Part shown: in pieces, positions 9,301 through 36,094 of the stretch
Layout: every line of letters begins with the position of its first letter
How positions within the stretch are numbered: position 1 is the first letter of the stretch
Assembly (NCBI GenBank): GCA_028748685.1
Contig: JAJRDU010000275.1
Coordinates: 1-36,926 of the forward strand
Reading direction: 5' to 3'
DNA from: Methylococcaceae bacterium
GTDB taxonomy: Bacteria > Pseudomonadota > Gammaproteobacteria > Methylococcales > Methylomonadaceae
DNA: 36,926 nt
Made by a program: the position numbers and the translations under genes
Notes under the pieces: model-generated
Databases searched by the model: none
What the model saw: only the letters and a program-made list of their open reading frames with translations
What the model was told of the DNA's origin: nothing

Positions 9301-12300
9301 ACTTCGGGCGCTTTTAGAACCAGCTTTTTCTCGGGCGGCGTGTTAAACATCAGGTTACGGACAGTATCCAGCGGATACAACCAATCCAGACCGCCTACCG
9401 TCACCCCGAACGGAATCATTTGATCCTTGGCGGATACCGTGGTCAGGCTGTTTTCCGCCAGCGTCAGTTTTTGACCGGCTTTCAGGTTAATGGTGCCCAG
9501 CGGCGCCTTAAGCACGCCGGACTGATTGATAACCGGCGCTTCAAAACTCAGTTCGCCGGCCGCCGACAACGGCGACTTATCGGTATTGGTACCGCTAATA
9601 TTGATTTGTCCATTGGGGTTGTTTTTAACCGCAAAGGTAAATTTGCTCAGCGTGGTCGGATAGATTTGGCTGGCATGCAGGTTAAGATCGGCGGCGGCCA
9701 CCATCGCGCCCAAGAACTCGCGTTCCGCACCGGAACGGTTGCCGACCGTGCGCAAGTCGTGGATACTGTTGAGATCGATCCGCTTGAAATTATCCCATTG
9801 CGTAGCGCCGAACAACTCTATCCATTGGGCATTTGCGTTGAATTGCCCCGCGCCGGCTACCGGCAAACCGTTGACTTCTCGCTGTTGCGACGAACCCATG
9901 CGCAGCAGCGCGGTATTCAGATTGACCGCACCGCTTGTAGCGCCGTTAGTGCCCACCCAAGCGATCTTGGCGGCATCGAGTTCCAGACGCGCGCTGGTGG
10001 TCAGATCCACATTACCTTCGAAGCGAATCTCGTCGGGCGTTTTCAAGCGTACATCGCTAAAGCCGCCGGCTTCCAGCGCATCGGCGGACACCACGGCCTG
10101 GCCATTGAATCGGTCGGGAATATCGTCGCCAAAGCCGACATCGGCCGCCATTAGCGGCTGTTGGTTTTCCTTGACATGGATCAGCAAGGGATTGTTTGGA
10201 AAAGGTCTCGCCGGAAAATCGGGCGGTAGACGAACGCTTTTGCTGTATAGCTCCAGCGAAAAGCGGCCGGCGCGCATCGTATCGGAACCTGCCTGACCGC
10301 GCAGAGTGCCGTCCAACACCGCGCCTTCCACCGCCATCATGCCGATACTACCCGCATTGGAAGCCACATCGACAGGTGCAAACGAAGCAGTGGAGCCAAC
10401 CTTGGGCAAATCGAGGACCCCATGGGTACCGGAAACATCGATCAACGAGCCTTGTTCGGCGATCAGATAACCCCTCTTCAGATCGAAGGTCACCTGGCCA
10501 CCATCTAGCACCTCCCCTGTCCGGCGACCCAAGGCATCAAGCGGATTCATACGTGTCGTACCTTGCGCCAGCAATTGCGCATGCTCGCCCAGACGTATGC
10601 TTTGCGACGGATCGTATTCGGAACCGGCTTGAGGAAGAATGGATAGATTGATCTTACCAGCCGGGGTTTTGATCAGTCCGTCGATGTAAATTCCACCCAA
10701 CGAGGATTCGAGATTCACCGTGGACTCTTTGTCAGTAACAATGGCACTGCCGGTAGCCAGCGTAACATCGGTCTTACCCGTCAGGCTCAATCTAAACGGT
10801 TGACGCAGATGCTCCGGCAATAATTCGGCATGGGCAAAATCTCGAATGGAACTCGTGGTAGCTTTTTGCCTGAGGTTGCCGTCAAGCACCAGGTTTTTGG
10901 TCTTTAAGTCCAGTTTTACATCCGAACCGACCGTCACACCTTCAAAGTTACCGACCAGATTGATAGCACCGAAACTTGATTCCGGATCGAAGGCAAATTG
11001 GCCGTTAACCACCGCCAATGTTAGTGGATCGGCCGTCTTAGGCACTCCGGCACCGAGAATGATCTCGCCACTATTCAAGGTTAAAGTACCGCCCTTGCTT
11101 AACGAAGCCGCCGAAACCTCGCCATCCAGATGCACCGTCGAAGCAACCCCGTTCCCGACGGCGGCCAGTGCGATTTTGCCGCCCTTGCCGGCGGTCAGCT
11201 TGCCATTCTGCGCCAACCTCGCGCCGCCGTCCGCGCTCAGTTTCGCCCCTGCCCGCACGAACACGTCGCCCACGGATCTCACATTGATGGAACCGCCATC
11301 CAGATAAAGCGGATCGAGCGGGGTTACCGACGAACTCTGCTGCAAATCGTTCACCCAGCGGCCGGAAACATCCAACACCGAGGCTGCGCCCAGATTCACA
11401 TCGCCTATGGAATTGGCAATCGTCAAATTGATGGAGCCACCCGTCGAAACCTCATTTCCATCTTTATCTAATTTCCATGCTCCGCCCACGGCATGAATCT
11501 CTCCCTGCACATCGATTCCGGCAGCCTCAACGGTAAACTTGCCGCCATCCGCCATCCGTACTTCGGCGTCCGCCGCGACCGTCGCCTGTCCACGGGTTTT
11601 AACGATCACATCTTGAACCCCCGAGCGATTGGTCAGATCGGTCGACAGCACCAAGGCTTGCGGCTTGTTATTGTCGGTCTTAGGGAATGGCTGCCCCTGG
11701 GCAATGGCGAAATCGGCTTTTTCAGTCTGGAAGCGCACGTCCTGAAGTGCGTTGACGAATGCGGTGGAATCGAATACAAAGCTACCGCCATCCGGCCTGT
11801 CGCCAGGCAAGCGCTGATAGCGTCCGGTGTCGGAACCGGCACTCAATTCACCATTCCAGGCCAAATAGGGTGCTTTGATATTGATGGAGCCGGCAGCCTT
11901 ACCTTCCCGGTAGCCTTTTTCGAATTGGCCTTGGCCGAAATCCCAGACGCTTTCCACACCCCATTTTTTATGGACTTCCTTTACCACGCCATAAACGGCG
12001 GCATAATGCTCGTTGGGATCGGCGGCGCTGATGTCGACAATACGGCCGTAATCGGTCAGCAACTTGGTGGTACTGATGTAGCCATCCTTATAGTCGACAG
12101 AACCGCCGGCAATGTTGACCTTGGCGCCATCGTTAATAATGACGTCACCGCTGGAGATCAGGTTGATTTCCCCCCCCTCGCTCAAACGCTCTTTAACAGT
12201 ACGCGCCACCCTGGCTTGTGCGCCGCTGGCATCGACAATCTTGGTGTCCTTGCGAAGATCGACCCTGACGGTTTCGCCCTTCAGCACGCCGGTTTTTTGC

Positions 12301-13973
12301 AGGGGCGCGTCGCGCAATTCGTAACTCTGCACCGAAATCTCGCCGACATTGCGCTCCATCGCCACTTCCACGCCTTGGTAGCCAGACACATCGATCACTG
12401 CCCCCTTGTCTACGTAAATTCGACCGCTGGTGCCTTGAGTCGGCACATCATCGTTGGGGACCAGTTTATCGGTTGCGGTGATATCAACCTTGCCGCCGGG
12501 CACGACAATCGCCGAATGGGATTTCAGCGCCACGGTATGGGCATGGGCTTGCAGATAGGATTTCGGCTGTAATTTACCGTCGATTTCGGTGGGTTCTTTC
12601 TTATCGGCAAGGCCGTCGATTTCAGTGAGTTCTTTGTTATCGGCGACGATTTGCGTGACGCTGCCTGAATCGAACGTCAATTCGGATTTGGTTTTCAACC
12701 CGTCGTGGTTATCAATAGTGCGAGTGGTTTTTATTTTATCGGCCGTTATAAGGCCTGGATCCGGATCTTTATCCGCGGCCAGCCCCAGTTCCTGAGCCAC
12801 CAGCCGGATGGAACCGTTGACATTCACCGACGTCGTCGCGCTCACGCGCCCACTCTGATTAACCGCGAAACCGGCCATCGTGATGTTGCCCTGCCTGGCC
12901 AGAATATTACCCATATTCTCGACCTTACCGCCGGTGTTCACTTCCACCAACAGACCCGCAAAATCGCTACCCTTGGCGGTCTCATGCAAATACACCTTGT
13001 CCTGGCTGGCCGCCAGAATGATTTGTCCATGTTCATCGGCGGACAGAGAACCTTGGTTTTCTATTGTCGGCGCGACGATGATGATACGGCCATCTTTATC
13101 GGCGTGAATCCGTGCTTGAACGGGAACAGGTACAATCGGATTACCCAACTTATCCAGAACCACTTGCCCATCGACGCCAATTAACTGTCCAGTCTTATTT
13201 GTAATAAAGCCTTGCTCAACGGGAATGGGCCGATCAAATTTATCAAGAATTTTCTGACCATTCTTATCGATCAAATTCCCGTCCGCGTCCGTTTTCAATC
13301 CTTTTTCAAAGGTAATGCTAGAGGCCTTATTGACCGCAGTCGTCGCATCGTTCGCATCCGGCCTGTCGCCAAACGCTGCCTTGCCTTTCTCATCAAGCAC
13401 CTTGGTAATTCCGCGATTCAGCGCTTCGTCACTGATATTCAGCGTACTGGCGACCAGACTATTCGCGTTGACCACGGAATCCTTGCCAAACACAAAGCCG
13501 TTCTGGTTATACAGATAGATCTGGCCGTTTGCCGTCAGCGAACCGAGAATGCGACTGGCATCTTGCTGATGAATATTGTTGAGCAGCACCGAGGTCGAGG
13601 ACAACTGTTTGACGTTCACGCTGTAGCCTTTATCGATATTGAAGCTATTCCAGTCCGCCGTCGCTTTGTCGGTGAGCTGCTGGATGGTCATTACCTTCCC
13701 ATCCACCATGGCTTTCGCCCGACCATGATTCGCTTTATCGATAATATCCCGGGGCGTCGCATCTAGCGCGACATTCGCCGAAGGCACCGGGAGCGGTATT
13801 GGCAGCGATGCGAGCCCTTGCATCGCTACCGGCAGCTCGGCTTTCACGGGAGATACGCCGGCGCCGATGACAAACCCGCCCGCTACTACGACCCGTACAC
13901 CAGCGACGAGCGGCTTTAATCTGAAAAAATGATCCGATGATTTACGTGCCGTCGGTTGATGTCTATTGGACAT
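3309..13973 (-). CDS. Giant two-partner-secretion exoprotein (filamentous haemagglutinin family, TpsA)
   Basis: A predicted secreted adhesin or matrix protein of about 3554 aa, exported across the outer membrane by a TpsB pore. An extended signal region (about residues 1-47, ending SPVKA) precedes a TPS secretion domain at about residues 50-175, with NNIHQQDASRILGSL, ANGQIYLYNQNGFVFG and NANSLVAST, the usual haemagglutination-domain signature. Residues beyond that are Gly/Asp/Val-rich repeats such as GGKVDIT and GAVIDVSG, expected to form a long beta-helix. The C-terminus (APKGVIDAGEAGIGG ... NNIQVGGVGTGVPV) resembles the DUF3739 tail of this family. The ATG at 13973 follows AAAGGTGACAACC and is preferred to a TTG at 13997 that has no such site. 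tpsB lies directly upstream, with a riboswitch in the 138-bp gap. The ligand or adhesion target cannot be read from sequence. Confidence 0.93.
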   Translation of the reverse strand: MSNRHQPTARKSSDHFFRLKPLVAGVRVVVAGGFVIGAGVSPVKAELPVAMQGLASLPIPLPVPSANVALDATPRDIIDKANHGRAKAMVDGKVMTIQQLTDKATADWNSFNIDKGYSVNVKQLSSTSVLLNNIHQQDASRILGSLTANGQIYLYNQNGFVFGKDSVVNANSLVASTLNISDEALNRGITKVLDEKGKAAFGDRPDANDATTAVNKASSITFEKGLKTDADGNLIDKNGQKILDKFDRPIPVEQGFITNKTGQLIGVDGQVVLDKLGNPIVPVPVQARIHADKDGRIIIVAPTIENQGSLSADEHGQIILAASQDKVYLHETAKGSDFAGLLVEVNTGGKVENMGNILARQGNITMAGFAVNQSGRVSATTSVNVNGSIRLVAQELGLAADKDPDPGLITADKIKTTRTIDNHDGLKTKSELTFDSGSVTQIVADNKELTEIDGLADKKEPTEIDGKLQPKSYLQAHAHTVALKSHSAIVVPGGKVDITATDKLVPNDDVPTQGTSGRIYVDKGAVIDVSGYQGVEVAMERNVGEISVQSYELRDAPLQKTGVLKGETVRVDLRKDTKIVDASGAQARVARTVKERLSEGGEINLISSGDVIINDGAKVNIAGGSVDYKDGYISTTKLLTDYGRIVDISAADPNEHYAAVYGVVKEVHKKWGVESVWDFGQGQFEKGYREGKAAGSINIKAPYLAWNGELSAGSDTGRYQRLPGDRPDGGSFVFDSTAFVNALQDVRFQTEKADFAIAQGQPFPKTDNNKPQALVLSTDLTNRSGVQDVIVKTRGQATVAADAEVRMADGGKFTVEAAGIDVQGEIHAVGGAWKLDKDGNEVSTGGSINLTIANSIGDVNLGAASVLDVSGRWVNDLQQSSSVTPLDPLYLDGGSINVRSVGDVFVRAGAKLSADGGARLAQNGKLTAGKGGKIALAAVGNGVASTVHLDGEVSAASLSKGGTLTLNSGEIILGAGVPKTADPLTLAVVNGQFAFDPESSFGAINLVGNFEGVTVGSDVKLDLKTKNLVLDGNLRQKATTSSIRDFAHAELLPEHLRQPFRLSLTGKTDVTLATGSAIVTDKESTVNLESSLGGIYIDGLIKTPAGKINLSILPQAGSEYDPSQSIRLGEHAQLLAQGTTRMNPLDALGRRTGEVLDGGQVTFDLKRGYLIAEQGSLIDVSGTHGVLDLPKVGSTASFAPVDVASNAGSIGMMAVEGAVLDGTLRGQAGSDTMRAGRFSLELYSKSVRLPPDFPARPFPNNPLLIHVKENQQPLMAADVGFGDDIPDRFNGQAVVSADALEAGGFSDVRLKTPDEIRFEGNVDLTTSARLELDAAKIAWVGTNGATSGAVNLNTALLRMGSSQQREVNGLPVAGAGQFNANAQWIELFGATQWDNFKRIDLNSIHDLRTVGNRSGAEREFLGAMVAAADLNLHASQIYPTTLSKFTFAVKNNPNGQINISGTNTDKSPLSAAGELSFEAPVINQSGVLKAPLGTINLKAGQKLTLAENSLTTVSAKDQMIPFGVTVGGLDWLYPLDTVRNLMFNTPPEKKLVLKAPEVILAKGSTVDISGGGDLYSYEFQAGSGGSYDYLQPRSGSNEGGFAVIPNLGSDLAPYDHYESTGSGSADFAGIELGSKVYLSGGGGLAAGEYTLLPAHYALLPGAFLVTPQAKTQDQTLTTHTKSGLAVVAGYQTVAGSGTRDARWSGFRIENGADVRLRSKYEGNTANAFYAAKALKNETSAPELPNDGGHISIAAQNKLVLDSTFLVDAANGGRGSRMDIAANKIKVVNQLSAAPAVGTLELLADDLSALKIDSLMLGGARNRNKTTGATDVDVTAQQVIFSADSKLHVSDMIAAATELVEVRGGAELVASGQVNSGDTVLNVNGDGVLLRVSGDKQVVLNRTNTPGNKGELKLAAGSKLSASESMVLDASKSTQLSGDIDMRGGSLNLGANTINLGEVDNLSGNALNLSNSKLQNFSVEELVLTSRGSIGIYGNLGLVDGNGQAVIGDDGLQKAVQFDSLVINAAGFSGFGQGGQSARLQANNLKLENLSATAYKTITDTTSNVLTLANTQGLQVGDYLVGAGFAAHTTITAISGDRVTLSAAPTAPIASGAIVTDAGHGNGQGSLELLATNVTQGAGNFGINGFKAVNLSNQNGFTADGASVLSVVSDLNLSSDYLTATGGSSFKINADGHTLNVSGNGRTVGAVPFGFGGAMEFIADKIDFNTKALLPSGDFDLHALTGDVNLGSQASLDLAGRKVIFADKVEYTPGGNFKAVADHGQVILAAGSLVDMSSGGGNAEGGKLTLETPEQSVVLKGQLQAAAGSAVIDVARFDATTGFDVLMKALYDAGANQSIYFRTRQADILQAADSTINAQTVSLVADRGAIDLEGEIHADANAEGGSIRLYAGDGITLKNGSELTAKGAKGGEVLLSSVDSDNDNVSGIDLQAGSLIDVKGSTAEKNGEVSLRALRNGSSIKIEPVAGTVAGAKKFYAEGVRKYTDDDGFITSTEIATIKADTNVYMTAANMKGVTNSLGNGIRLWAGVEVNYSGDLALTDTWDFADWRYNEGTGLSDMPGHLVVRAGGTFTVNESLSDGFKDGMLIGAAGTYETPVSGVLMRGDSWSYGLTAGADLTSADPTAISAKKDLVIGSNVKVRSGTGDIQLVAGGDIKFIDQTSTVYNAGRPTDVNPNGTLAVNMVVGALPYLDYPVEGGNLLIKAGKDIVGAVNDSRSVDAWLYRQGTGLRQEDSYLLTVASDLISLKDDAAALAAYKDTLPAQVKALIHDDIKIDTFAYSEPTTWGVILNDNSFQQNVGSFGGGKVEISAAGNIRDLSVIMPTTGKQTGQPIADGENVNTVGTGFLTNQVDVQGGGEMHVRAGKDIAGGIYYLGQGRGTMVADGAIKGGSQFTAGPQLLMGDTQLELQAKKDLSLTGVSDPMILGTTSTNFFSYGDASKLVAKSTSGDVHLGADPSSFATIRGIDDERAALAAVYPASLLATAFGGSVILDDAITLFPSAKGELNLLADKDISSKGVEAKKLGMSDADRALLPTALSPSASNALKDVVERIFPEDLAPKSHAETPVHVGDREPARLVTRHGDIKNIQFNLAKKALVHTGRDFSNVQLSIEHANLDDTSLLDVGRDLFYTSDRSADGALNGNTGKIKVSGAGELLVKTNRNFDLGASEGLSTVVLNTGPSDKGAGITVLSGLNGGNPDYAAFIGKYLEGSGLYAADFAKVSSLITDFMRQRSGNGELGEDVALAEFKSLRAEEYLAIAPKLNALILPVYMNEIRESGKASAGSGKLGNESGFAAIKTLFPGTQWSGDLSMIFSKIQTLDGGNINLLVPGGKVNAGLAVSVEDRDASELGIVAKGEGDVNAVINGDFLVNQSRVFSLSGDDITIWSSNGNIDAGSGAKSVIGVPPAEWSYPKGNLKFKFPPIVSGSGIRTAAGSPTAKAGDVYLFAPKGVIDAGEAGIGGNNVFLVATAVIGANNIQVGGVGTGVPVASTGSVAAGLTGTSNMTAGVSQMAESSVSAGPDNDKSAMKNAILGMLSVEVLGFGE

Positions 13974-14014
13974 GGTTGTCACCTTTGTCAAAAACAATTA
14001 ACAAATTTAAATAA

Positions 14015-14092
14015 GTGGCAACCCGGCTATCTTTATATTCAAGACCCGCGGCTTTCCGCCCCCGCCTCACGACGGGTTTAGCATTTACACGA
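14015..14092 (-). ncRNA. GEMM / cyclic di-GMP-I riboswitch, copy 1 (before tpsA)
   Basis: The minus-strand RNA starts GTGTAAATGCTAAACCC. A stem capped by a GTGA (GNRA) tetraloop follows, then GGAAAGCC, GGGTCT, and the closing block AGCCGGGTTGCCAC. The order and spacing match the GEMM cyclic-dinucleotide aptamer. It lies in the gap between tpsB (stop at 14112) and tpsA (start 13973). The closing strand GGTTGCCAC can pair at 8 of 9 positions with GTGACAACC, which overlaps the tpsA ribosome binding site. This suggests that ligand binding frees the site (ON switch). Class and ligand are inferred from pattern, not from a covariance search. Confidence 0.75.
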
Positions 14093-14111
14093 AAAATTTT
14101 AAAAAGAAGAG

Positions 14112-15764
14112 CTAAAACTCCGTGGCGACACTAAAATGCAAGCGGGGATCGCCCTTATTAACAGGATGCAACGAAGTAAACGGAATACCGACATCAAACG
14201 CGCCGCTAAGCTGCTTCCATAATTGGAAATGCAGTCCGAAACCGCCACTAGTCAACGTGTTACTCTTAACGTTACCTGGCAAGCTGTCCTTGATCCAACC
14301 CTTGCCGGCATCCAGAAATGCCAACAGTTTCAATTTGTTGACATACTCCCAATCATCCAAACCCAAATGAGGTGAGTGCAACTCCAGCGAACCGAATATC
14401 CCATCATCGGCCAAGGCTTGGGTTTCGAAATACCCTCGCACGCTCTGCGCCCCACCCAACGAGAACTGTTCATTACTAATCAGCGGCGAATCGGCCGCTT
14501 GCCCGGCAAAATGGCTGACCAATTCCATACCCAGCGGTAAATCGTGTTGAAACTTCAGATCGCCGGTCACATACATATAATTGGCTCTGGCTTTGAAACG
14601 TTTGTCTTCGAACTGCTGCTGCTTGTTACCTAGGCCGCGCACCGAGAAATGCAGCCCCAAATCAAAGCTGGTCATCGACTCCTTGCCGCGCAGGCTGCCG
14701 CTGTATTGCGCCAAAAACGGCGCATAAGCGATAGGCGTCTTGATACTATCCGAGCCGATCAGATTTAAATCCTCCTGAAAATCCTTGTAATCGACGCCCA
14801 GCGTGGCGTTGTGGAAATAATCGTTCAGAGGTTTCAAGGGCTTGACCAAGCGCGCACCGTAAATATTACCGATACCGATCACCGACAGCGCCCCGGCACT
14901 AGCGATCTGCGAACTCGACGACGAACTGACCGCATAAAATGCAAAGCGGGTACCGTCGTCGAACAGCGGCATAGCATAGGTACCTGCCCAGACATCGACT
15001 TCTTCGTTATTCTCCGGCGATGTCTGATACATCAGCGAAGCGCTGTGCATCGCCTGCCAAAGATTGTCGTAACGCAACGACGACACCAATCGCAACCTTG
15101 ATGTACTGGAGGTATTGCGGCCGTTTAACTCCACCCTGCCGTGCAAGGGCAACTCGTCCTTGACCTTTAAATCGACTTCCAGCGTACCCGGCGTTTCGCC
15201 CGCGCGCAGTATCGGTGTAATTTGCCGGTCCGGGCTTTGCCCGGCCAATTCCGCCAGCTGTTTCTGCATCTTCGGCAGATTGGGCACATTGCCTTCGGCC
15301 AGTTCCGGCACGCTGGCCTTGATTTTGCCGAGCGAGAAATACCGGGAATCCTTCACCCGCAAGCGCGATACCTTGCCTTCCACCACTTGCAGATAGACGG
15401 TGCCGTTTTTCACATCCTGTTCGGGAATATCCACCGTTACGGTCTGGTAGCCCTGGGTGTGATAAAGCTCTTCCAGCGCGGCCCGCGCCGTTTCCACGTT
15501 GTCTATGCTTTTCTTCGGCCCCAGGAACGGATAAATAGTGCGTTCCAATTGCTTCTTGTCGATCAGCGTATTGCCCTTGACCCGCAACTCCATCAAATCG
15601 AAGGTAGCAGCTTGCCGAGGCGTGGCTTGCGCTTGATTCGCCACTTCCGCCTCGACTTGAGCTCCTTGAGCAACCTCCTGGGCAAACGCATCGGATGCCA
15701 CCGTAAAAATACAGCCTGCCAACCACCATAACGCCCGGCCAGGCTTGATTCTGTTTACCCGCAT
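14112..15764 (-). CDS. Outer-membrane TpsB transporter (ShlB/FhaC/HecB family)
   Basis: A 550-aa Omp85-superfamily pore that exports the neighbouring TpsA exoprotein. The order is: signal peptide (about residues 1-28, ending DAFA), a Gln/Ala-rich linker, two POTRA domains (about 50-210; FDLMELRVKGNTLI, QGYQTVTVDIPEQ, VYLQVVEGKVSRLRV), then a 16-strand beta-barrel. The barrel has the conserved SLGGAQSVRGY motif, whose VRGY sits in the loop that folds into the pore, and ends in a terminal Phe (FSVATEF) needed for outer-membrane insertion. Length is normal for FhaC-type proteins. The ATG at 15764 has only a weak AAGACAG ribosome binding site. tpsB precedes tpsA, the common order in such pairs, and its promoter region carries a Pho-box-like sequence. 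Confidence 0.93.
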   Translation of the reverse strand: MRVNRIKPGRALWWLAGCIFTVASDAFAQEVAQGAQVEAEVANQAQATPRQAATFDLMELRVKGNTLIDKKQLERTIYPFLGPKKSIDNVETARAALEELYHTQGYQTVTVDIPEQDVKNGTVYLQVVEGKVSRLRVKDSRYFSLGKIKASVPELAEGNVPNLPKMQKQLAELAGQSPDRQITPILRAGETPGTLEVDLKVKDELPLHGRVELNGRNTSSTSRLRLVSSLRYDNLWQAMHSASLMYQTSPENNEEVDVWAGTYAMPLFDDGTRFAFYAVSSSSSSQIASAGALSVIGIGNIYGARLVKPLKPLNDYFHNATLGVDYKDFQEDLNLIGSDSIKTPIAYAPFLAQYSGSLRGKESMTSFDLGLHFSVRGLGNKQQQFEDKRFKARANYMYVTGDLKFQHDLPLGMELVSHFAGQAADSPLISNEQFSLGGAQSVRGYFETQALADDGIFGSLELHSPHLGLDDWEYVNKLKLLAFLDAGKGWIKDSLPGNVKSNTLTSGGFGLHFQLWKQLSGAFDVGIPFTSLHPVNKGDPRLHFSVATEF

Positions 15765-15791
15765 GTAATCTGTCTTATCCGTGTGAGCACT

Positions 15792-15855
15792 GGTTTTCCC
15801 ATCGAAAACCGTTAAACCGTTATTCTATGACGCTTGCGTTAAGCTTTTATGACAA
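15792..15855 (-). promoter_or_regulatory. Candidate PhoB-type promoter and leader hairpin of tpsB
   Basis: On the minus strand TTGTCAT-AAAA-GCTTAAC (15838-15855) is followed after exactly 10 nt by TAGAAT (15822-15827), a good -10. The first half matches the Pho-box half-site CTGTCAT; the second half is degenerate. Between this and tpsB lies a perfect 7-bp hairpin, GGTTTTC-loop-GAAAACC (15792-15810), of unknown role. The same 7-4-7 plus 10-nt layout occurs at three other places in the window. Confidence 0.45.
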
Positions 15856-15870
15856 GCCATCTCTTACCAA

Positions 15871-15939
15871 TGTAGGTGCGAATTTATTCGCACTGATAGC
15901 CCCAATTGCCGCCCAAATGCGAATAAATTCGCACCTACA
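15871..15939. repeat. Long palindromic repeat (GTAGGTGCGAATTTATTCGC type)
   Basis: Perfect 22-bp inverted repeats (15871-15892 and 15918-15939), beginning TGTAGGTGCGAATTTATTCG, surround a 25-bp loop. A related half-unit is embedded at 27870-27884. This is a dispersed non-coding repeat; its position about 20 bp upstream of the tpsB promoter means it could block read-through from upstream. Confidence 0.75.
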
Positions 15940-16035
15940 AAAACCGCCTGGAGTATTGGCTTTGTCCACGGAGCATAAAAAGCGCTAGCCATCATCCATC
16001 CCATCGCTTCGATGGTGTCGGATTACGCTCTTTAG

Positions 16036-16153
16036 TTAAGGAAACTCTGAACAAGTTGATTCCGCTCATGGTTCGACAAGCCCACCACGAACGGAATCAC
16101 CCACTTACCGTTCGTCCTGAGCCTGTCGAAAGACTAAATCAGAGCTTTCTTAA
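16036..16153 (+). repeat. TTAAGGA-family repeat (copy 2, full length)
   Basis: A 118-bp unit whose ends are inverted: TTAAGGAAACTCTGA at the left and TCAGAGCTTTCTTAA at the right. Internal blocks such as CTCATGGTTCGACAAG and CGTCCTGAGCCTGTCGAA recur at 22895-23036, 19912-20008 and 26690-26760. It has no coding capacity and is probably a MITE-like repeat. Confidence 0.65.
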
Positions 16154-16234
16154 GAATTAACCATACCTCCCAAGCCCTTCAGCTTCGCTGAACCCTGTCG
16201 ACGGGTGAAGAACTTACGCCACCCCATACAAACG

Positions 16235-16265
16235 AAAAAACCAGCCGTCCGAAAACGGCTGGTTT
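16235..16265 (-). terminator. Rho-independent terminator after the PstS-like gene
   Basis: The minus-strand RNA AAACCAGCCG-TTTTCGGA-CGGCTGGTTTTTT forms a 9-10 bp GC-rich stem followed by a T-run. It lies 55 nt after the stop codon of the gene starting at 17906 and ends that operon. Confidence 0.9.
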
Positions 16266-16319
16266 GCATAGCTTTTGCGGTATTCCCTTACCGCCTCAAC
16301 TTGTCAAATGCTTTGCGCA

Positions 16320-17906
16320 TTATTGAAGTTGAACACCGGCAGCAGTGTTGGTCAGGTCATAAACAGCCGGGATACGGCAGTTGTTGACTGCTTGAGTAGT
16401 CGTACCGTGGCTGTAGGGGTTAACCGGGTAGCTGGATACGAAGTTACCGTCGACGGCTGGCGCGAAGTTTTTAGGCGAAGCCAAGTAACCGCTATCGCCG
16501 AAAGGATGTACGTTGGTCGCGTTCAGAGAAACGATAACGTTAGGGTTGCCGGCGGCTTTGATGAATTCCTTGACAATCAGGTCTTCGCTGGTATCCCATA
16601 CGTGAGTCTTGGAATATTGGAAAGTCAGCTCGGCCCAATCGTGGTATTTGCCTTTAGCAACGTTAGCCAATGTCGGAGCCACACCGTCGATTTTCACGAA
16701 GCGCCAAGCTTCTGCTTGGTTGGCATTTTTTTCCAGACCCTGGATACCGATAGCCCAACGCGCACCGCCGGTTGTATAAGTGTTGTTAAACGCTGTACCG
16801 ATGGTATTGACGCCTGCATCCAGCTCTCTCAAACACTCGGACACGCCACCGGAGGTAGACATGGCATGATTTTGAGGTTTCGCTATCACTTCACCCAGAG
16901 CACCGGAATCAGGTATTGGGCCATTGGCGGCTGTCGCACAAGGGTAGTTCAGGAAGTTGATACCTGCTTGCGCCTTGGTGCCTGAACCATCGACACGTGT
17001 GCACATATGCACACGGGCGTTGGCATTGCCCGGTTTGTTGGCCGCGCTGGCTAACGTGTACAGGTCGCTGGCACCGACTTTCAGGTCTTTCCAGCTGTCC
17101 ATCTTGCCGGTCAAGAGGCTGGCGACTTGGTCGCGAGTCAGGCTAGGCATACAGGCTTCGGTTTCTGAACCCACGCAGGCGTTGCCTACGCCAAATTGCG
17201 CTTCCTGCAGGGCGTTACGCAGTTTCAAGGTAGCGCCGATGCCGAATACTTGGCCGCCGGCGGATTCAACATTCAACAGACTCAAGTCTGATCCATTAAC
17301 CGCCTGAAAACCGGCCGGTGTATTGACGCCGCGGAATTGTTCGGGATCGACATCAGAAATACCGAAATCAGGTTTGCTCAGTTTGAATTGACCAGCAGTC
17401 GTTGCTGAATAAGTACAGGTAGAAACATTCAAACCCGCTGTCAGAGCAGGTACTGTACAAACGCTAGGATCGACGTTCAAGAAGGCAATCGAAGCAGTGG
17501 CGGCGCCCTTGGCATCGTCGATGATAGGGGTAACACCCATCGCGGAACCGCCCGCGCTACGTTTATAGATCAACAGCTCGGTTTTACCGCCGGCCAGACC
17601 TACCAATTGTGGGTTCAGTGGGTTCAGTGTGCAGTAGTAAGCGTTTTGATCCTTGCCGGTGCCATTATCCTTGAATTTATAGATAGGTTTGGTTGAATCG
17701 CACATACGGTCGGCGGCGATCACGGAAGTGCTGGTCGCCAAATGTTCGATATAATCCAGTGCCGCGGAAGCGCCCGACAAATAGATTTCGTAAGTGTTGG
17801 CAGGTGTCACAACGACTTTACCCGCACCATCGAGTGTGATGGCAGCTTGTGCCGCACCACCAAACATCGCCGCGGAAATTGCAGCGCCTAAGATTAACTT
17901 TTTCAT
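16320..17906 (-). CDS. PstS-like periplasmic/extracellular binding protein
   Basis: A 528-aa exported protein of the type 2 periplasmic-binding-protein fold, resembling phosphate-binding PstS. It has a signal peptide (MKKLILGAAISAAMFGGAAQA). Three glycine/serine loops are in the positions PstS uses for the anion: YLSGASAAL near residue 45, KRSAGGSAMGV near 115, and MCTRVDGSGTKA near 305 (PstS typically reads RSDGSGT). The helix-rich stretch LTRDQVASLLTGKMDSWKDL is also typical. Several Cys pairs suggest disulphides. At 528 aa it is longer than ordinary PstS (about 320-350 aa). There is no lipobox and no pstCAB nearby, so a free periplasmic or secreted role is more likely than ABC uptake. It lies 66 nt behind a PEP-CTERM gene, probably in the same transcript. 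The start has GAGAGAGAAC before the ATG. The ligand is inferred, not shown. Confidence 0.7.
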   Translation of the reverse strand: MKKLILGAAISAAMFGGAAQAAITLDGAGKVVVTPANTYEIYLSGASAALDYIEHLATSTSVIAADRMCDSTKPIYKFKDNGTGKDQNAYYCTLNPLNPQLVGLAGGKTELLIYKRSAGGSAMGVTPIIDDAKGAATASIAFLNVDPSVCTVPALTAGLNVSTCTYSATTAGQFKLSKPDFGISDVDPEQFRGVNTPAGFQAVNGSDLSLLNVESAGGQVFGIGATLKLRNALQEAQFGVGNACVGSETEACMPSLTRDQVASLLTGKMDSWKDLKVGASDLYTLASAANKPGNANARVHMCTRVDGSGTKAQAGINFLNYPCATAANGPIPDSGALGEVIAKPQNHAMSTSGGVSECLRELDAGVNTIGTAFNNTYTTGGARWAIGIQGLEKNANQAEAWRFVKIDGVAPTLANVAKGKYHDWAELTFQYSKTHVWDTSEDLIVKEFIKAAGNPNVIVSLNATNVHPFGDSGYLASPKNFAPAVDGNFVSSYPVNPYSHGTTTQAVNNCRIPAVYDLTNTAAGVQLQ

Positions 17907-17936
17907 TTGTTCTCTCTCATTTAAAAAAGGATTAAT

Positions 17937-17965
17937 GCCGCCCCCCGCAACAAAAAGGGAGCGGC
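17937..17965 (-). terminator. Intergenic hairpin, possible attenuator
   Basis: The minus strand GCCGCTCCC-loop-GGGGGGCGGC forms a GC-rich stem 8 nt after the PEP-CTERM stop codon. The T-rich run (CCTTTTTT) begins only several nt later, so it may give partial termination or protect the upstream message, with some read-through into the PstS-like gene. Confidence 0.5.
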
Positions 17966-17972
17966 TAATGAC

Positions 17973-18740
17973 TTATAAAGCCATTGATTTACGACGGTTC
18001 AAACGCAACACGCCCATCAGACCGGCGCCGAACATCCATACCGCGGCAGGCAGTGGCACGGCGGCAGGAGGAGGCGTAATAGCAGGCGCGGCAAAGCTCA
18101 GGCTGTTGCCGGCCAGTTTCCATTCACCTTTGAAAGTACTCGGAATGTTGTCACCGGTGTTTTGGTCCATTTGACCCAATTGAAAACCTACAGATTGACC
18201 ATAGCTGGCCTGTGGATCTTGAATCCAGCCACCCCAAACAGAGGCAGCATCACCGTGCTGACCCAGACCTGCTGCCTCGCTATCCAATACCAAAGTGCTC
18301 ACGTTCTGAGCATCGTTGATCCCTGGAGCTTTGGCGTTGATGTCGGTCACATGGACTTCTATCTTGTTAGCGGTATCCATTCCGAATAACACTTGCGCAG
18401 TAGTAGCCAGGGGCGCGCCGGTGATAGCTGCACCAAAATCAATGGTATCGCCGACGGCGACCACGTACTTGATAACACTGGTTTTCGCGCCGGTGATGAA
18501 GTTGGTCCAGTTGGCATCGGCGGATAGGTCAAAATTCAGGCTGTAAGCAGCATTGTTGACGTTGGCAACCAATTCGTTGTAAGTCACGCCGGTATCCAGC
18601 GTAAAGGTTTTACCGGTGCTGATGTCGTAAGCCGACAAAAAAGCTTCGTTCAAGCCACCAGAGTGGTTAGCGATACTAGCGTTAGCAGCGCCAGCGCTTG
18701 CAAACAGCGCGGCCGCGATCAAAGTTTTTGCAAATTTCAT
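17973..18740 (-). CDS. PEP-CTERM (VPLPA-type) surface protein 1
   Basis: A 255-aa exported protein. Residues 1-22 form a signal peptide (MKFAKTLIAAALFASAGAANA). The middle is a beta-rich Asn/Asp/Ala domain that I do not recognise. The C-terminus is a sorting signal: VPLPAAVWMFGAGLMG, a hydrophobic helix, then a basic RLNRRK tail. Proteins with this tripartite tail are processed by an exosortase and delivered to the outer surface or matrix; no exosortase gene is in the window. The ATG at 18740 has AAGGAAACAACA as ribosome binding site. The open frame continues upstream to 18875, but that part is the riboswitch and not protein. Expression is probably set by the riboswitch at 18786-18875 and by Pho-like promoters further upstream. 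Confidence 0.85.
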   Translation of the reverse strand: MKFAKTLIAAALFASAGAANASIANHSGGLNEAFLSAYDISTGKTFTLDTGVTYNELVANVNNAAYSLNFDLSADANWTNFITGAKTSVIKYVVAVGDTIDFGAAITGAPLATTAQVLFGMDTANKIEVHVTDINAKAPGINDAQNVSTLVLDSEAAGLGQHGDAASVWGGWIQDPQASYGQSVGFQLGQMDQNTGDNIPSTFKGEWKLAGNSLSFAAPAITPPPAAVPLPAAVWMFGAGLMGVLRLNRRKSMAL

Positions 18741-18785
18741 TGTTGTTTCCTTATGTTTAAAAATTGAAAGTCTTAAATACACAAG

Positions 18786-18875
18786 GTGATAACCCAGCCA
18801 TCTTGACGCCCTTTTGGAACTTCGAGACCTGAAGCTTTCCGTCCCCGCTTCACAACGGGTTTGGCTTTTACACAC
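18786..18875 (-). ncRNA. GEMM / cyclic di-GMP-I riboswitch, copy 2
   Basis: The minus strand reads GTGTAAAAGCCAAACCCG, then a GTGA-capped stem, GGAAAGC, AGGTCT, and the closing ATGGCTGGGTTATCACC. The ATG of the PEP-CTERM gene is 45 nt downstream. Just after the aptamer, CCTTGTGT can pair with ACATAAGG, which contains the ribosome binding site (8 pairs, one G-U). This is consistent with translational control. Confidence 0.75.
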
Positions 18876-19071
18876 TTTTCCTGCCTGACACTATCTAACG
18901 AACAAACAGTGCCGCTTTCTCCCCGCTACCATTTTCCGTATCCTCGCCTACTCCCTAACCTCTTCCTTATCCCACTCCCTATTCGTGCCATCCCTGTTCC
19001 CTAGTTTTCCCAACCCCTTGTCAATCGCCTCTTCCTACACGGCGTCCAACTTGCTGCGGATTATTCCAGAG

Positions 19072-19105
19072 TGATTACGAGGTTTCAGTTACAGGTCGGT
19101 TACAG
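19072..19105 (-). promoter_or_regulatory. Candidate PhoB-type promoter, proximal copy
   Basis: On the minus strand CTGTAAC-CGAC-CTGTAAC (19088-19105) is a perfect 7-bp direct repeat with an 11-bp period, the layout of a Pho box (consensus CTGTCAT-AAAT-CTGTCAC). It is followed after 10 nt by TAATCA as a possible -10. The leader to riboswitch copy 2 would be about 190 nt. Confidence 0.5.
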
Positions 19106-19277
19106 TCGTCGGAAATGTAATACATAGGTATTACCACGTAGGCACCGCTACCGATTGCCGCCCGTTCCACCCCTACTAACTTCCTTGCCGCAACATCCTG
19201 GTTCCGTATCTATTCGCAACTCCGCATGCCAGCCGCAAAATTCGGCTAACATTCAATCTGACGTGGATTATCCGGAG

Positions 19278-19311
19278 TCATTGCGATATTTCGGTGACAG
19301 GTCGGTTACAC
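19278..19311 (-). promoter_or_regulatory. Candidate PhoB-type promoter, distal duplicate
   Basis: GTGTAAC-CGAC-CTGTCAC (19294-19311, minus strand) with CAATGA 10 nt downstream. It lies in a roughly 88-bp segment (19265-19353) that is a diverged direct copy of 19058-19146, shifted by about 206 bp. Its second half-site (CTGTCAC) matches the Pho consensus exactly. No gene lies between the two copies. Confidence 0.4.
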
Positions 19312-19443
19312 TTCTCAAAAATGTCATACGAAGGTATTACTTTGCAGGGTAGCCACGTCTGCTTGCATCAAGCACAGGCTTATTGCTCGACGTATGATTG
19401 GTAGGCTGCAGTTGTGGTAAATACTGGAATTGGAGGAGATGCC

Positions 19444-19678
19444 ATGGGCGACACAATATCCATTCGCATTGATCAAAACCGTACGACCAGGCTAAAACCG
19501 AAGCAGCTATTATGAACACCGCACCATTGCCGGACAGGTTGAGTATCGGGCCAACTTGGGGAAGGCTGCACTCGACAATCCCGATCCGCCAGCGAGCTTT
19601 ATCGCCGAAGCCCTAGCCTCGATGGCGGATCCCCGCGTACAATCAACGCCTTTTGTACCGAACCCTTGTCGGAAATGA
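19444..19678 (+). pseudogene. Decayed ParD-like antitoxin
   Basis: The remains of a type II antitoxin on the plus strand. The frame starts MGDTISIRIDQN, shifts to YDQAKTEAAIMN, and shifts again to HRTIAGQVEYRANLGKAA followed by LDNPDPPASFIAEALAS. The last piece strongly resembles the GQ(I/V)EYWA-LGKAA block of ParD-like antitoxins (the DUF3423 type). Two frameshifts therefore break one original gene of about 75 codons. The final TGA overlaps the ATG of the toxin remnant (ATGA), the usual coupling in such modules. No ribosome binding site or promoter was identified. Confidence 0.65.
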
Positions 19679-19914
19679 GTTACGGCGTTCAACAAAACCG
19701 CCGCTTTGCATGCCAGTACAAAAAACTGTATGACAACATTGCCGCCGATGCCGATGCGGCTGTTGGAGTGTTTGCGGATAATCCGTTGGTGAACGCAAGA
19801 AAGGCGATCTTAGCTCTTTACTGGTATAGAAGTTTCACAGCCAAGGCCAGCTATACCTGCTGGGCTACACTGTGGATGACGGTCTATGCTTGATTTATCT
19901 GGAGGCCGTAGGCT
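19675..19914 (+). pseudogene. Decayed RelE/ParE-type toxin
   Basis: The N-terminal part reads MSYGVQQNRRFACQYKKLYD followed by NIAADADAAVGVFADNP, typical of RelE/ParE-family toxins. After NARK the frame shifts by one base. The family sequence then resumes as KKGDLSSLLV, a TAG stop, then KFHSQGQLYLLGYTVDDG and LIYLEAVG. Homologues normally continue with a short PHENFYRDLK-type tail, but here the TTAAGGA-family repeat begins instead. The gene therefore has a frameshift, an internal stop and a truncated 3' end, so no working toxin is expected. Confidence 0.7.
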
Positions 19915-20008
19915 CTCCTGAGAAAAGCCGAAGGGCTCACCACGAACGGAATCAATAAGTTACCGTTTTTGCTGAATTTGTCTAAGGATTGAATCATCGT
20001 TTCCTTAG
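19912..20008 (-). repeat. TTAAGGA-family repeat (copy 3), truncating the toxin remnant
   Basis: Shares CTCACCACGAACGGAATCAA and a CTAAGGA / TTTCCTTAG end pair with the other copies. It begins within the codons where the toxin C-terminus should be, so its insertion probably removed the end of the toxin gene. Confidence 0.5.
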
Positions 20009-20083
20009 CATCCTGTTTGCTTGACGAGGGTATGACGCGGAGGATGGGCAAGTAAAGCCGCATTGAAAAATCTGAATAGCGAG

Positions 20084-20118
20084 AAAAAATCACGTTGGCT
20101 GAAGCGCGGCCAACGTGA
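20084..20118 (-). terminator. Rho-independent terminator after PEP-CTERM gene 2
   Basis: The minus strand TCACGTTGGC-loop-GCCAACGTGA is a perfect 10-bp stem followed by TTTTTT, 22 nt after the stop codon. Confidence 0.9.
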
Positions 20119-20139
20119 CGTGAGACGAGTTATACTTTT

Positions 20140-20922
20140 TTACATGGCAAATTTTGATTGTCCAGCGCTTTTGCGGCGGCTGGCAAACATTGTCATCAGA
20201 CCGGTACCGAACAGCCACACGGCTCCGGGTACGGGAATAGCAGCGACTGATGAAACATCATTGATGGTCTTGGATGAACCGATCAGGGACGCCAGAGTAC
20301 CGTTGCTAACATCGCCATCCAGGGCTTTTACCAGATTGTTGAACCCGGCACTTAAACCAAACAGCCATAGACTTTCACCGGTAGAGCCGCCTGTCAAACC
20401 AGCATTGTTTGCCGCCCATCCGTCCGTGAAATGTGTATTAAAGCCCAGGGCAAAACCGGCGCCGGTACCTATTGGATCGGGAGAGCCATTACCAGGCTCG
20501 GTATCCAGCAAATCCGCTTTAAGCAACAATTGGTACGGTTGGTCAGACCATGAAGTTCCACCATGCGCACCGGCTGGCAATGACCCATTGATTAGCAGAA
20601 AGTTGCTTAAAGCTTTACCACCTATCTGTGTAATCAATTTGCCGTCCGAATTGAAGTTGGCCTGATACGCCACGCTACCGTCATCCAGCTCTAAAGCATC
20701 GGACGCATTGCCATCGCCGACCAAGAACGACGTGGTCAGACCAATGCCTCTCAACTGCCAATACGGGTTGTCGTCGGTACCTTTTTTAATAATCTTGATC
20801 ATCTCACCGGTATCGGTAAATGCCGGCAAACTATAATCATTGATTCCGGAAGCGTTACCGGTGCTCGCGAACAGCGGTAACAAAAGGACTAACACCCATT
20901 GTGCGTTTTTAATGGCTTTCAT
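20140..20922 (-). CDS. PEP-CTERM-type surface protein 2
   Basis: A 260-aa exported protein with a signal peptide (about residues 1-24, ending TGNAS) and a C-terminal sorting tail, IPVPGAVWLFGTGLMTMF followed by ASRRK. The middle shares long blocks with the next upstream gene (21562-22377), such as YQANFNSDGKLIT, GGTSWSDQPYQLLLKADLLD and GLTGGSTGESLW, so the two are paralogues from a local duplication. The function of this domain is unknown to me; a surface or matrix role follows from the tail. The ATG at 20922 has AAAGGGAG as ribosome binding site; the longer open frame to 21015 is leader sequence. A riboswitch lies upstream but is separated from the gene by an inserted element of about 283 bp. 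Confidence 0.85.
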   Translation of the reverse strand: MKAIKNAQWVLVLLLPLFASTGNASGINDYSLPAFTDTGEMIKIIKKGTDDNPYWQLRGIGLTTSFLVGDGNASDALELDDGSVAYQANFNSDGKLITQIGGKALSNFLLINGSLPAGAHGGTSWSDQPYQLLLKADLLDTEPGNGSPDPIGTGAGFALGFNTHFTDGWAANNAGLTGGSTGESLWLFGLSAGFNNLVKALDGDVSNGTLASLIGSSKTINDVSSVAAIPVPGAVWLFGTGLMTMFASRRKSAGQSKFAM

Positions 20923-20962
20923 TTGTAAATACTCCCTTTGCGTTAAAATAACTAAACAAAAG

Positions 20963-21245
20963 TGGCTATTGACTACCCACAGGTTAAAGCAAAACCGGTG
21001 GCTGGTAAGGAACACAATTCCCGCAAGCGATTGGGAATTTGCTTTCCCAAAAGCGATGATTCCTCTGTTTCAGAATATAGATGAACGATATAGGACACTG
21101 GCTAAGGAAACCATCCGTACAAACACCTAAATTTAGCCAAACTGATTGGACCAAGCGACTCGGTTTTCATTAATCAAATACATATCGATCTTCGGAAAAT
21201 CAAATCAGAATTTGTAGTGGACCACCTGTGGTTTGTAAATAGCCA
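20963..21245. mobile_element. MITE-like insertion between riboswitch copy 3 and its gene
   Basis: A 283-bp non-coding element. Its 22-bp ends (20963-20984 and 21224-21245) are inverted repeats matching at 19 of 22 positions; both begin TGGCTATT and end CCACAGGT. The element is flanked by the direct repeat TAAACAAAAG (20953-20962 and 21247-21256), consistent with a target-site duplication of about 10 bp, one base offset on the right. The paralogous leader at 22378-22406 lacks this segment, which supports insertion rather than an ancestral leader. I cannot assign an IS family. Confidence 0.7.
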
Positions 21246-21255
21246 TTAAACAAAA

Positions 21256-21342
21256 GTGACAACCCGGCCATCTTAATGATCAAAACCACCAAGACCCGCG
21301 GTTTTCCGCCCCAACCTCACGGCAGGTTTAGCTTTAACACAG
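21256..21342 (-). ncRNA. GEMM / cyclic di-GMP-I riboswitch, copy 3 (displaced from its gene)
   Basis: The minus strand reads CTGTGTTAAAGCTAAACC, a GTGA-capped stem, GGAAAACC, GGGTCT, and the closing ATGGCCGGGTTGTCAC. All core blocks are intact. Its gene begins 333 nt downstream, against 28-45 nt for the other copies, because of the inserted element. Confidence 0.72.
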
Positions 21343-21504
21343 AAATAAACTTAACACACTATTGAATTTCCAACCACCGTATTTTGATTGCGGGAAAAGT
21401 TTCGAATAAGCCGTTGACAGAAACGGAAACCGTTGATTCCTATCAGCCCAATATTTTGAATTCTTTATGCCTTCAAGCAACGGCTGTCGCCGAGCATCAA
21501 AAAA

Positions 21505-21541
21505 CAAAAAAGCCACGCTGGCTAGCTTCAGCCAACATGGC
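21505..21541 (-). terminator. Rho-independent terminator after PEP-CTERM gene 3
   Basis: The minus strand GCCATGTTGGCT-GAAGC-TAGCCAGCGTGGC followed by TTTTTT, 20 nt after the stop codon. It resembles the terminator at 20084-20118, as expected if gene and terminator were duplicated together. Between here and 21343 (about 160 bp, the promoter region of PEP-CTERM gene 2) I see only a half Pho-like site, CTGTCAA (minus strand, 21414-21420). Confidence 0.88.
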
Positions 21542-21561
21542 GCGGAACGAGTGTTACTTCT

Positions 21562-22377
21562 TTATACGGCAAGTCTTGATGAACCAGTATTTTTGCGGCG
21601 GCTAGCCACTAAAGTCATCAAGCCGGTTCCAAACAGCCAAATGGCACCGGGTACTGGCACGGACGCGACCGATACTACACCGGTAATGGTTTTGGATGAA
21701 CCTATCAATGAACTCAGCGTGCCGTTGCCACTATAGCCATCCAGGGCCTTAACCAGATTTTGAAAACCGGTACTCAAACCAGCCAACCATAGGCTTTCAC
21801 CCGTGGAACCGCCAGTCAAACCGGTGTTATTCGCGACCCAGCCACCGGTGAATTTAGTGTTGAAACCCAAAGCGACACCGGCATAGTTACCGATTAAATC
21901 GGGTGTACCGTTACCTGGCTTTACATCCAGCAGATCAGCCTTTAGCAAGGTTTGATACGGTTGATTGGTCCACGAAGTGCCACCAAAAGTACCGGCTGGC
22001 AAGGAGCCCTTGATTTCCAGATAGTTACTCAGGGTTTTGGAACCCATCGAGGTAATCAATTTGCCGGACGAGTTGAAGTTGGCCTGGTATTTCACACTCT
22101 CGCTACCCAAATTTACACTATTAGACAGGCCTCCCCAAAATGAGGCGGTTGACCCCGTTCCGGTCAGTTGCCAATAGTAATTTGAGCTAGAACCCTTTCT
22201 TTCTACCTTGATTGTTTCGTTGGTATCCAAGAATAACGGCCAGCTAAGATCAGCGACACCGGATGCGGTATACGAATATGCTCCGTTCGTATTCGAATAC
22301 GATGATGCATGACCAGCACTAGCAACCAACGGTAACACGAGAGCCAACGCCCACCGCGCGTTTTTCATTACGTTCAT
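21562..22377 (-). CDS. PEP-CTERM-type surface protein 3
   Basis: A 271-aa exported protein, paralogue of the gene at 20140-20922. It has a signal peptide (about residues 1-25, ending GHAS), a Ser/Asn/Gly-rich domain with SVKYQANFNSSGKLIT and GGTSWTNQPYQTLLKADLLD, and the sorting tail VPVPGAIWLFGTGLMTLV followed by ASRRK. The ATG at 22377 follows AAGGGGAATTTACAA; a second ATG three codons later is less likely, because the paralogue aligns to the first. It is probably an exosortase-processed surface protein. The riboswitch ends 28 nt before the start, the tightest spacing of the four copies. The gene is monocistronic, with its own terminator. Confidence 0.85.
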   Translation of the reverse strand: MNVMKNARWALALVLPLVASAGHASSYSNTNGAYSYTASGVADLSWPLFLDTNETIKVERKGSSSNYYWQLTGTGSTASFWGGLSNSVNLGSESVKYQANFNSSGKLITSMGSKTLSNYLEIKGSLPAGTFGGTSWTNQPYQTLLKADLLDVKPGNGTPDLIGNYAGVALGFNTKFTGGWVANNTGLTGGSTGESLWLAGLSTGFQNLVKALDGYSGNGTLSSLIGSSKTITGVVSVASVPVPGAIWLFGTGLMTLVASRRKNTGSSRLAV

Positions 22378-22405
22378 TTGTAAATTCCCCTTACGTTAAA
22401 AATAA

Positions 22406-22490
22406 GGTGGCAACCCGGCTATCTTGACTAAAATCCGCAAGACCCGTGGTTTTCCGCCCCTACCTCACGGCAGGTTTGGCTTTTACACGC
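22406..22490 (-). ncRNA. GEMM / cyclic di-GMP-I riboswitch, copy 4
   Basis: The minus strand reads GCGTGTAAAAGCCAAACC, a GTGA-capped stem, GGAAAACC, GGGTCT, and the closing ATAGCCGGGTTGCCACC. Immediately after it, CCTTAT can pair with GTAAGG, the 5' part of the ribosome binding site of the gene at 22377. Confidence 0.77.
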
Positions 22491-26652: not shown

Positions 26653-26689
26653 CCTAAAAATAGCAATCGATACTTGTGTTCCGAAATCC

Positions 26690-26760
26690 CGCCCACCCTT
26701 CGACAGGGCTCTCCTGAGCGAAGCCGAAGGGCTCAGGGCAAACGGAACTTCGGAATGCTC
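26690..26760. repeat. TTAAGGA-family related repeat between gspH and gspI (copy 5, partial)
   Basis: Carries the inner hairpin block CCCTTCGACAGGGCTCTCCT ... GCCGAAGGGCTCAGGGCAAA, shared in part with copies 3 and 4, but without clear ends. It separates two genes that would normally overlap or nearly touch. Confidence 0.5.
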
Positions 26761-26777
26761 AACTGCTCTTTTCCGGT

Positions 26778-27290: not shown

Positions 27291-27304
27291 GGCGGCAATC
27301 GAGA

Positions 27305-27736: not shown

Positions 27737-27781
27737 AACGGTACGAATTAGTTCATGTTAATGCACCCCCATGTGGATAGT

Positions 27782-27902: not shown

Positions 27903-27940
27903 TTGCCTTGCGGATGCGGGACAATAAAAATTGTGTTTGT

Positions 27941-27985: not shown

Positions 27986-28042
27986 CCTACATTGATTAGA
28001 TTAGAAAGCCAAAATGACAGGCGTATGACAAACGCAATACGG

Positions 28043-29254: not shown

Positions 29255-29259
29255 GACTA

Positions 29260-35846: not shown

Positions 35847-36094
35847 GACTTGCAAGACCGACTGAATAAAGGTGGCGTTAATCTAAAGGCTGGTTGTTAC
35901 AATTTGATTACGCAAGCCGTCGGCTCGCAAGGCCCGTTACCTTAAAAATTGGACATTTGACCTTTCTGGCTAGATCTTACTCCCTCCCCATCAGAGCCGC
36001 ACATTCGGCCCAGCCACTGCTATCCGGCGCTGGACAGCATCCCGGTACAACGGCTATTCTCCGCGCTTACGATACTTGCAGCACTGGAGGCACC

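Follow-up and report, generated by a model that had tools for sequence, protein, structure and literature searches.

Do several riboswitches of one class within a single locus form a uniform set, answering one ligand at one set point? The question is raised by a 36,926-nt stretch of DNA from a Methylococcaceae bacterium (assembly GCA_028748685.1, contig JAJRDU010000275.1, here C275, positions 1 to 36,926; hereafter the window), which is one whole contig of a 77% complete genome. A preliminary description had placed four minus-strand copies of a GEMM (cyclic di-GMP-I type) riboswitch at 14015-22490, before tpsA and three PEP-CTERM-type genes (here PEP5, PEP4 and PEP3), and had suggested one surface regulon under cyclic-dinucleotide control. 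We find U in a ligand-binding position (position 92) of two of the four copies, a substitution maintained before one gene family across related genera. Because two copies carry C92 and two U92, the four are not one uniform set, and a single ligand acting at a single set point should not be taken for granted. The explanation that we favour, with moderate confidence, is a surface-protein regulon under cyclic di-GMP (c-di-GMP), in which the three intact leaders are ON switches and one locus has two switches differing at base 92.

The window was searched with Rfam cmscan at gathering cut-offs (35 bits for RF01051, 59 bits for RF03167). Four full-length minus-strand aptamers exceed these cut-offs, with ends within 2 bases of those given in the preliminary description, so that the copies and their class both hold; the shared motifs that had been named (AAACC, a GUGA cap, GGAAA, GGTCT and GGGTT) are likewise present in the sequence. 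Aptamer 1 (22405..22490) and aptamer 4 (14013..14092) have RF03167 as best match (22405-22489, 68.4 bits, E 2.6e-14; 14013-14091, 66.4 bits, E 1e-13), and aptamer 2 (21255..21342) and aptamer 3 (18785..18875) have RF01051 (21255-21342, 52.5 bits, E 1.2e-7; 18785-18875, 55.5 bits, E 2.3e-8). RF01051 alone matches all four, at 63.5, 61.1, 55.5 and 52.5 bits, and finds six more copies elsewhere in the partial genome, ten in all. With RF01051 (c-di-GMP-I, or GEMM-I) the window copies share the score class, the P1/P2/P3 layout and a GNRA-type P2 cap, as well as G20 and A47 in all four and C92 in two; they differ from it by a C-G pair at 21-46, where the model has G-C, and by U92 in the 18785 and 21255 copies. 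The numbers 20, 47 and 92 are those of Vc2, read off the Rfam alignment. RF03167, c-di-GMP-I-GGC, is the better match for the 22405 and 14013 copies (66-68 bits, over its gathering 59), and the GGC of its name presumably denotes positions 20, 47 and 92. The RF03167 consensus has G at position 47, whereas both copies have A47 in the alignments; their better score therefore does not show the GGC signature, and we rejected that label as a signature for them. These sequence tests support the assignment of all four elements as c-di-GMP-I riboswitch aptamers.

In the Rfam alignment base 92 is C at 22410 (aptamer 1) and 14018 (aptamer 4), and U at 21259 (aptamer 2) and 18789 (aptamer 3). Aptamer 3 precedes PEP3 and represents the conserved U92 type; aptamer 4 lies between tpsB and tpsA. 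We surveyed 61 genomes, the organism's own and relatives, of which 33 gave aptamer matches. The 152 survey copies from these 33 are listed matches that were placed and read (150 rows and two of the own genome), weaker matches being left uncounted, and the PEP3 counts cover PEP3 genes having a listed aptamer. G20 is present in 148 copies and A47 was read in 151; A20 occurs in the other four, L024 (G015), L049 (G008), L085 (G024) and L039 (G056). U92 was found in 19 copies. Eighteen of these stand before PEP3 homologs; the remaining one is the window's 21255 copy, which precedes PEP4. Every surveyed aptamer before a PEP3 homolog has U92 (18/18) and every one before TpsA has C92 (21/21), and a TpsA C92 copy is also listed in 15 of the 18 genomes with a PEP3 U92 copy.

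The same division extends to other genera, where nine of ten TpsA leaders have C92. Pooled with these genera and without double counting, GUGU...UCACC-type PEP3 leaders number 25 (the 18 of the survey, those of G009 and G017, and those of G061, G154, G073, G121 and G097), and all but that of G097 have U92 (24 of 25); for G009 and G017 base 92 was read from the sequence, since Rfam misaligns their P3 inserts. These two aptamers (L246 and L247) have long extra P3 sequence and score 36-37 bits, and aptamers of this kind may be overlooked or misread when the unmodified model is used for a survey. When the family's 121 genomes were searched with PEP3, 30 loci emerged. Twenty were put to Rfam, and the 18 with an aptamer over cut-off comprise 11 with U92 and 7 with C92; L257 and L259 had none over cut-off and stand outside the position-92 counts. 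Most of the remaining loci were short tail matches, or the own copy. A tree was built from 29 of 31 collected PEP3 proteins, two that were identical to others being dropped; it has several long branches and unsure deep joins, and on it the U92/C92 label requires 3 changes, against 6.3 in shuffles. Among 26 new family loci, 20 were taken further; 83 further family copies were read. Ten have U92, some of them PEP3 copies already counted, and include PEP5-like leaders of G061 and G099; of these ten rows, L307 has a doubtful 3′ alignment and L305 has C20. A pattern scan for U92 aptamers, with a pattern one base too long in P3, gave four matches, which are no census. U92 aptamers were found in metagenome-assembled genomes (MAGs) labelled Desulfuromonadales, Myxococcales, Alphaproteobacteria and Armatimonadetes, and U92 is thus not exclusive to this family. 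It is the conserved U92/C92 difference at one locus that is worth an experiment.

What could the U mean for the pocket? Passages of PMC9049102 name C92 among the residues critical for ligand binding, on simulations and cited measurements, and report weaker c-di-GMP binding by G20 and C92 mutants; they also describe A47 as better conserved than G20 and C92, so that C92 is not strictly class-defining. The same base change at the same place is known from the laboratory: the solved structures given in PMC10671752 include Vc2 with C92U (3MUR, 3UD3, 3UD4). In contrast to that mutant, U92 as described here occurs naturally, is conserved and goes with a single gene family. C75 in J1/3 of the cGAMP riboswitch, taken here to correspond to C92, forms a hydrogen bond with the ligand, according to a passage of PMC6274999. 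By analogy with Vc2, a different affinity is the likeliest effect of U92. Because base-92 changes in Vc2 reportedly weaken binding, PEP3 likely needs a different, probably higher, level of c-di-GMP than TpsA, the two pockets probably having different set points.

One alternative is that every one of the aptamers simply senses c-di-GMP, U92 being a substitution that lineages have inherited and tolerated with no functional consequence. Such neutrality would fit the scores of U92 copies, which still exceed the 35 bits of RF01051 (mostly 47-63; 36-37 in the two with long P3 inserts), their retention of G20 and A47, the occurrence of U92 in MAGs of four other groups, by which it is compatible with the class, and the three or more changes that the label undergoes on the PEP3 tree. 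It fits less well with the critical role that PMC9049102 gives to base 92, with the persistence of U92 in those 24 of 25 leaders despite PEP3 identity down to about 29% to the window's protein, and with the retention of C92 by TpsA leaders. We regard it as rather unlikely, and less probable than the explanation favoured here.

A change of ligand would be a more radical consequence. By base-pairing logic a U92 aptamer could sense 3′,3′-cGAMP, with one guanine at G20 and the adenine paired with U92; the existence of C92U Vc2 structures (PMC10671752) and the binding of c-di-AMP by G20A/C92U (PMC7288161) lend this some plausibility. GEMM-I is known, however, to gain cGAMP binding through G20A, as given in passages of PMC7288161 and PMC6274999, and U92 copies retain G20, save the C20 copy of G097. 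Among the window copies G20 is present in all four. Known natural cGAMP aptamers carry A20, and Hypr enzymes are marked by a serine at the place read here in the GGDEF motif. The partial own genome has 45 GGDEF matches, of which 40 are readable and all have Asp, so that no Hypr-type serine was seen in this 77% complete genome. None was seen in the 36 readable of 38 motifs in the complete G007 (35 Asp, 1 Asn), or in the 30 domains read of 60 in G024 (all Asp, one out-of-frame match set aside); other cGAMP synthases were not searched for. We consider sensing of cGAMP highly improbable, and give it the least credence of the readings weighed here.

U92 might instead serve the switch and not the pocket, by completing a local hairpin of GAYRGC with GYURUC; as long as no ligand is bound, this hairpin would compete with P3/P1. 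All six pairs of this hairpin are possible in 23 of 29 U92 copies and in 1 of 206 C92 copies, and when pair 92 is excluded the other five are possible in 16/22 distinct U92 aptamers versus 56/126 distinct C92/C93 aptamers. The contrast is partly automatic, since the facing base is A in 27 of the 29 U92 copies. Exchange of base 92 in silico gave inconsistent results: U92 makes the P1 state costlier in 6 of 19 leaders, and on average makes it cheaper by 0.7 kcal/mol, the opposite of a stabilised OFF hairpin. This role for U92 is very unlikely in our judgement.

How would binding reach the genes? The aptamers lie 28 nt (PEP5), 44 nt (PEP3), 40 nt (TpsA, ATG 13973) and 332 nt (PEP4) from the genes that follow them. 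A predicted expression platform before PEP5 (22387..22407, minus strand) sets CCUUA at the aptamer edge (22403-22407) against UAAGGGG (22387-22393), which contains the Shine-Dalgarno sequence; in the folded leader the probability that the latter is unpaired is at most 0.07. Before PEP3 the predicted platform (18749..18786, minus strand) pairs CCUUGUGU (18779-18786) with ACAUAAGG (18749-18756, Shine-Dalgarno), and the CCUU of the anti-Shine-Dalgarno strand also closes P1. Judged by eye, most PEP3 leaders, not all, can pair the aptamer edge CACCUU with an upstream AAG-N-GUG as P1. The anti-Shine-Dalgarno helix, CCUU(A/G)UGU:ACAU(A/G)AGG, does better than shuffled sequences (p <= 0.05) in 16 of 20 PEP3 leaders, the window's own among them (8 of 500 shuffles as good). 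In an alignment of 16 of 20 distinct leaders, which omits four whose 3′ stretch is identical or almost identical to another's, 91.4% of cells pair, versus 34-62% when the strands are slid by 1-3 columns. Forcing P1 in the PEP3 leader raises the unpaired probability of the Shine-Dalgarno core AAGG from 0.00-0.02 to 0.69-0.87. In G007 the P1 strand GAG, the edge CUC and the Shine-Dalgarno GAGG all fit one another (by eye); in several other PEP3 leaders GAGG faces CUU and forms a wobble. TpsA leaders rely on a different segment, which in the clearest relatives sets GGUUGCC against GGCAACC, and the predicted folds of the PEP5, PEP3 and TpsA leaders all hide the Shine-Dalgarno sequence.

From this pairing and folding we infer that, without ligand, the 3′ edge of the aptamer would pair with the Shine-Dalgarno sequence, and that c-di-GMP binding would draw the edge into P1/P3 and free the ribosome site; the three intact leaders would then most likely be translational ON switches. 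The PEP3-PstS-TpsB-TpsA locus, by its sequence, usually has two such aptamers, with U92 before PEP3 and C92 before TpsA. ON switching is better supported, on these models, for PEP3 than for TpsA, because TpsA leaders mostly fail the shuffle test, the window's own included. OFF switching, or control by transcription termination or mRNA stability and not by translation, could be read from the hairpin-like stretch and U-run seen by eye, in unfolded sequence, behind the aptamer of some PEP3 leaders of other genera. We judge it unlikely: there is no terminator-like site in the three intact window leaders, and the Shine-Dalgarno sequence is predicted to be hidden without ligand and, for PEP3, freed with P1 forced. 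Promoter-like and terminator-like sites are no commoner than in shuffles (11 vs 9.6 and 13 vs 11.2, respectively).

Several results weigh against two ON switches differing at base 92. The pair is reversed in G097, where PEP3 has C92 and the TpsA aptamer is C20/U92 (L305, 8086-8164), and it is not universal: in the stretch around TpsA in G007 the PEP3 aptamer is the only one over cut-off, and no TpsA copy is among the matches listed for G005 and G034. Six PEP3 homologs of four other genera (G170, G062, G165, G149, G065 and G091) have a different leader with C92, and U92 is found outside the locus, in the PEP5-like leaders of G061 and G099 and in the MAGs of other groups. As for the pocket, weaker binding by U92 is here drawn from Vc2, and the Vc2 contact list in the portion of PMC7288161 consulted does not name base 92, unlike PMC9049102. 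As for the platforms, covariation in the PEP3 helix does not rise above the shuffle control (one both-sides change, as high in 194 of 500; paired cells, 305 of 500), and the forced-P1 PEP3 fold is 6.8 kcal/mol less stable than the unconstrained one (-28.5 vs -35.3), so that the ligand must pay for P1. In the TpsA-type group (23 leaders with C92 and an ATG 30-50 nt away, 20 of TpsA and 3 others), seven reach p <= 0.05, all of them TpsA leaders; the window's own is not beyond shuffles (89/500), though its minimum-free-energy fold hides the Shine-Dalgarno sequence.

The fourth copy, aptamer 2, stands apart. A 283-nt insert (20963..21245) in the PEP4 leader splits it from the PEP4 ribosome-binding site. 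The insert has 22-nt inverted ends (86% complementary) and is flanked by 12-nt direct repeats (20953-20964 and 21247-21258); a search of the own genome and of 36 others from the genus gave no second copy, and the term MITE-like therefore rests on the ends and direct repeats. Assignment to a mobile family was rejected for want of a second copy. The sequence beyond the insert resembles, by eye, the intact PEP5 leader. Because of the insert and a mismatch in P2, aptamer 2 looks decoupled, and it is probably no longer coupled to PEP4 and decaying since the insertion cut it from its gene; its U92 may reflect decay instead of selection. The gene neighbours named in the preliminary description hold for all four copies, with the 21255 copy cut off from its gene.

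All genes of the locus lie on the minus strand. PEP5 (21562..22377, 271 aa), PEP4 (20140..20922, 260 aa) and PEP3 (17973..18740, 255 aa, of a family mostly with a U92 riboswitch) encode PEP-CTERM-like exported proteins. Their PEP-CTERM scores are weak: the sole listed NCBIfam match over cut-off is that of PEP5 (TIGR02595, 20.3 vs 16 bits), and the others were assigned by the C-terminal shape P[VL]P(A/G)AVW(L/M)FG...RRK. Two exosortase matches occur elsewhere in the own genome and, with its 45 GGDEF matches, speak for the favoured explanation. A PstS-like exported protein (16320..17906) is encoded between PEP3 and the tps genes, which specify TpsB, a ShlB/FhaC-type outer-membrane transporter (14112..15764, 550 aa), and TpsA, a very large exported adhesin-like protein (3309..13973, 3554 aa from ATG 13973), so named from its position after TpsB and in the preliminary description. 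The order PEP3, PstS-like, TpsB, TpsA is retained in the four relatives examined (G007, G013, G031 and G032). Since a 12-pair terminator-like hairpin (16265-16238) lies 3′ of the PstS-like gene, tpsB-tpsA is probably an operon of its own with aptamer 4 between its two genes; such hairpins, as noted above, are no commoner than in shuffles. A GGDEF-EAL protein, a c-di-GMP enzyme, is encoded on the same contig as the aptamers (33981..35855, minus strand). Type II secretion genes (gspD, E, F, K and L matched) adjoin the riboswitch cluster and are followed by this GGDEF-EAL gene (23573-35855), and a group II intron domain match (RF00029, 47.9 bits) lies at the contig end (36812-36881).

Do the copies belong to one regulon, as their density had suggested? 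Of the 152 survey copies, 104 stand before a protein whose tail fits a simple PEP-CTERM-like pattern and 25 before a long open frame; 22 are other or unclear cases, and one has no called gene. TpsA follows 21 of the 152. These sequence counts support a genus-wide surface-protein regulon, whose members would be exosortase-sorted or secreted by two-partner systems and would answer to c-di-GMP. The density itself is ordinary. RF01051 matches occur in 69 of the 121 family genomes (67 over cut-off), with up to 18 copies in a member, and relatives have denser clusters: five copies within 5 kb in G097 and four within 3 kb in G085. A published parallel is Methylophaga nitratireducenticrescens GP59, in which four c-di-GMP riboswitches (Ribo4-Ribo7) lie in 18 kb, each beside a PEP-CTERM gene (PMC12530212, in the part consulted); that part has, unlike the present work, no TpsA and no analysis of position 92. 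Besides it, we noticed no title on this locus among the papers listed for c-di-GMP or riboswitches with methanotrophs, Methylomonas (15 of 542 listed), PEP-CTERM, GEMM or filamentous hemagglutinin. Density as a novelty was accordingly rejected: clustering beside PEP-CTERM genes is ordinary for the family and already known.

The regulon would connect a single second messenger, with RNA as the sole intermediary, to the surface proteins that exosortases sort and two-partner systems secrete throughout a bacterial family. Within it, one locus supplies two natural aptamers with different bases at a ligand-contact position, in which the influence of base 92 on affinity, on specificity and on the gene-expression threshold is measurable. 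Beside the engineered Vc2 mutant, this pair would provide a setting kept by evolution.

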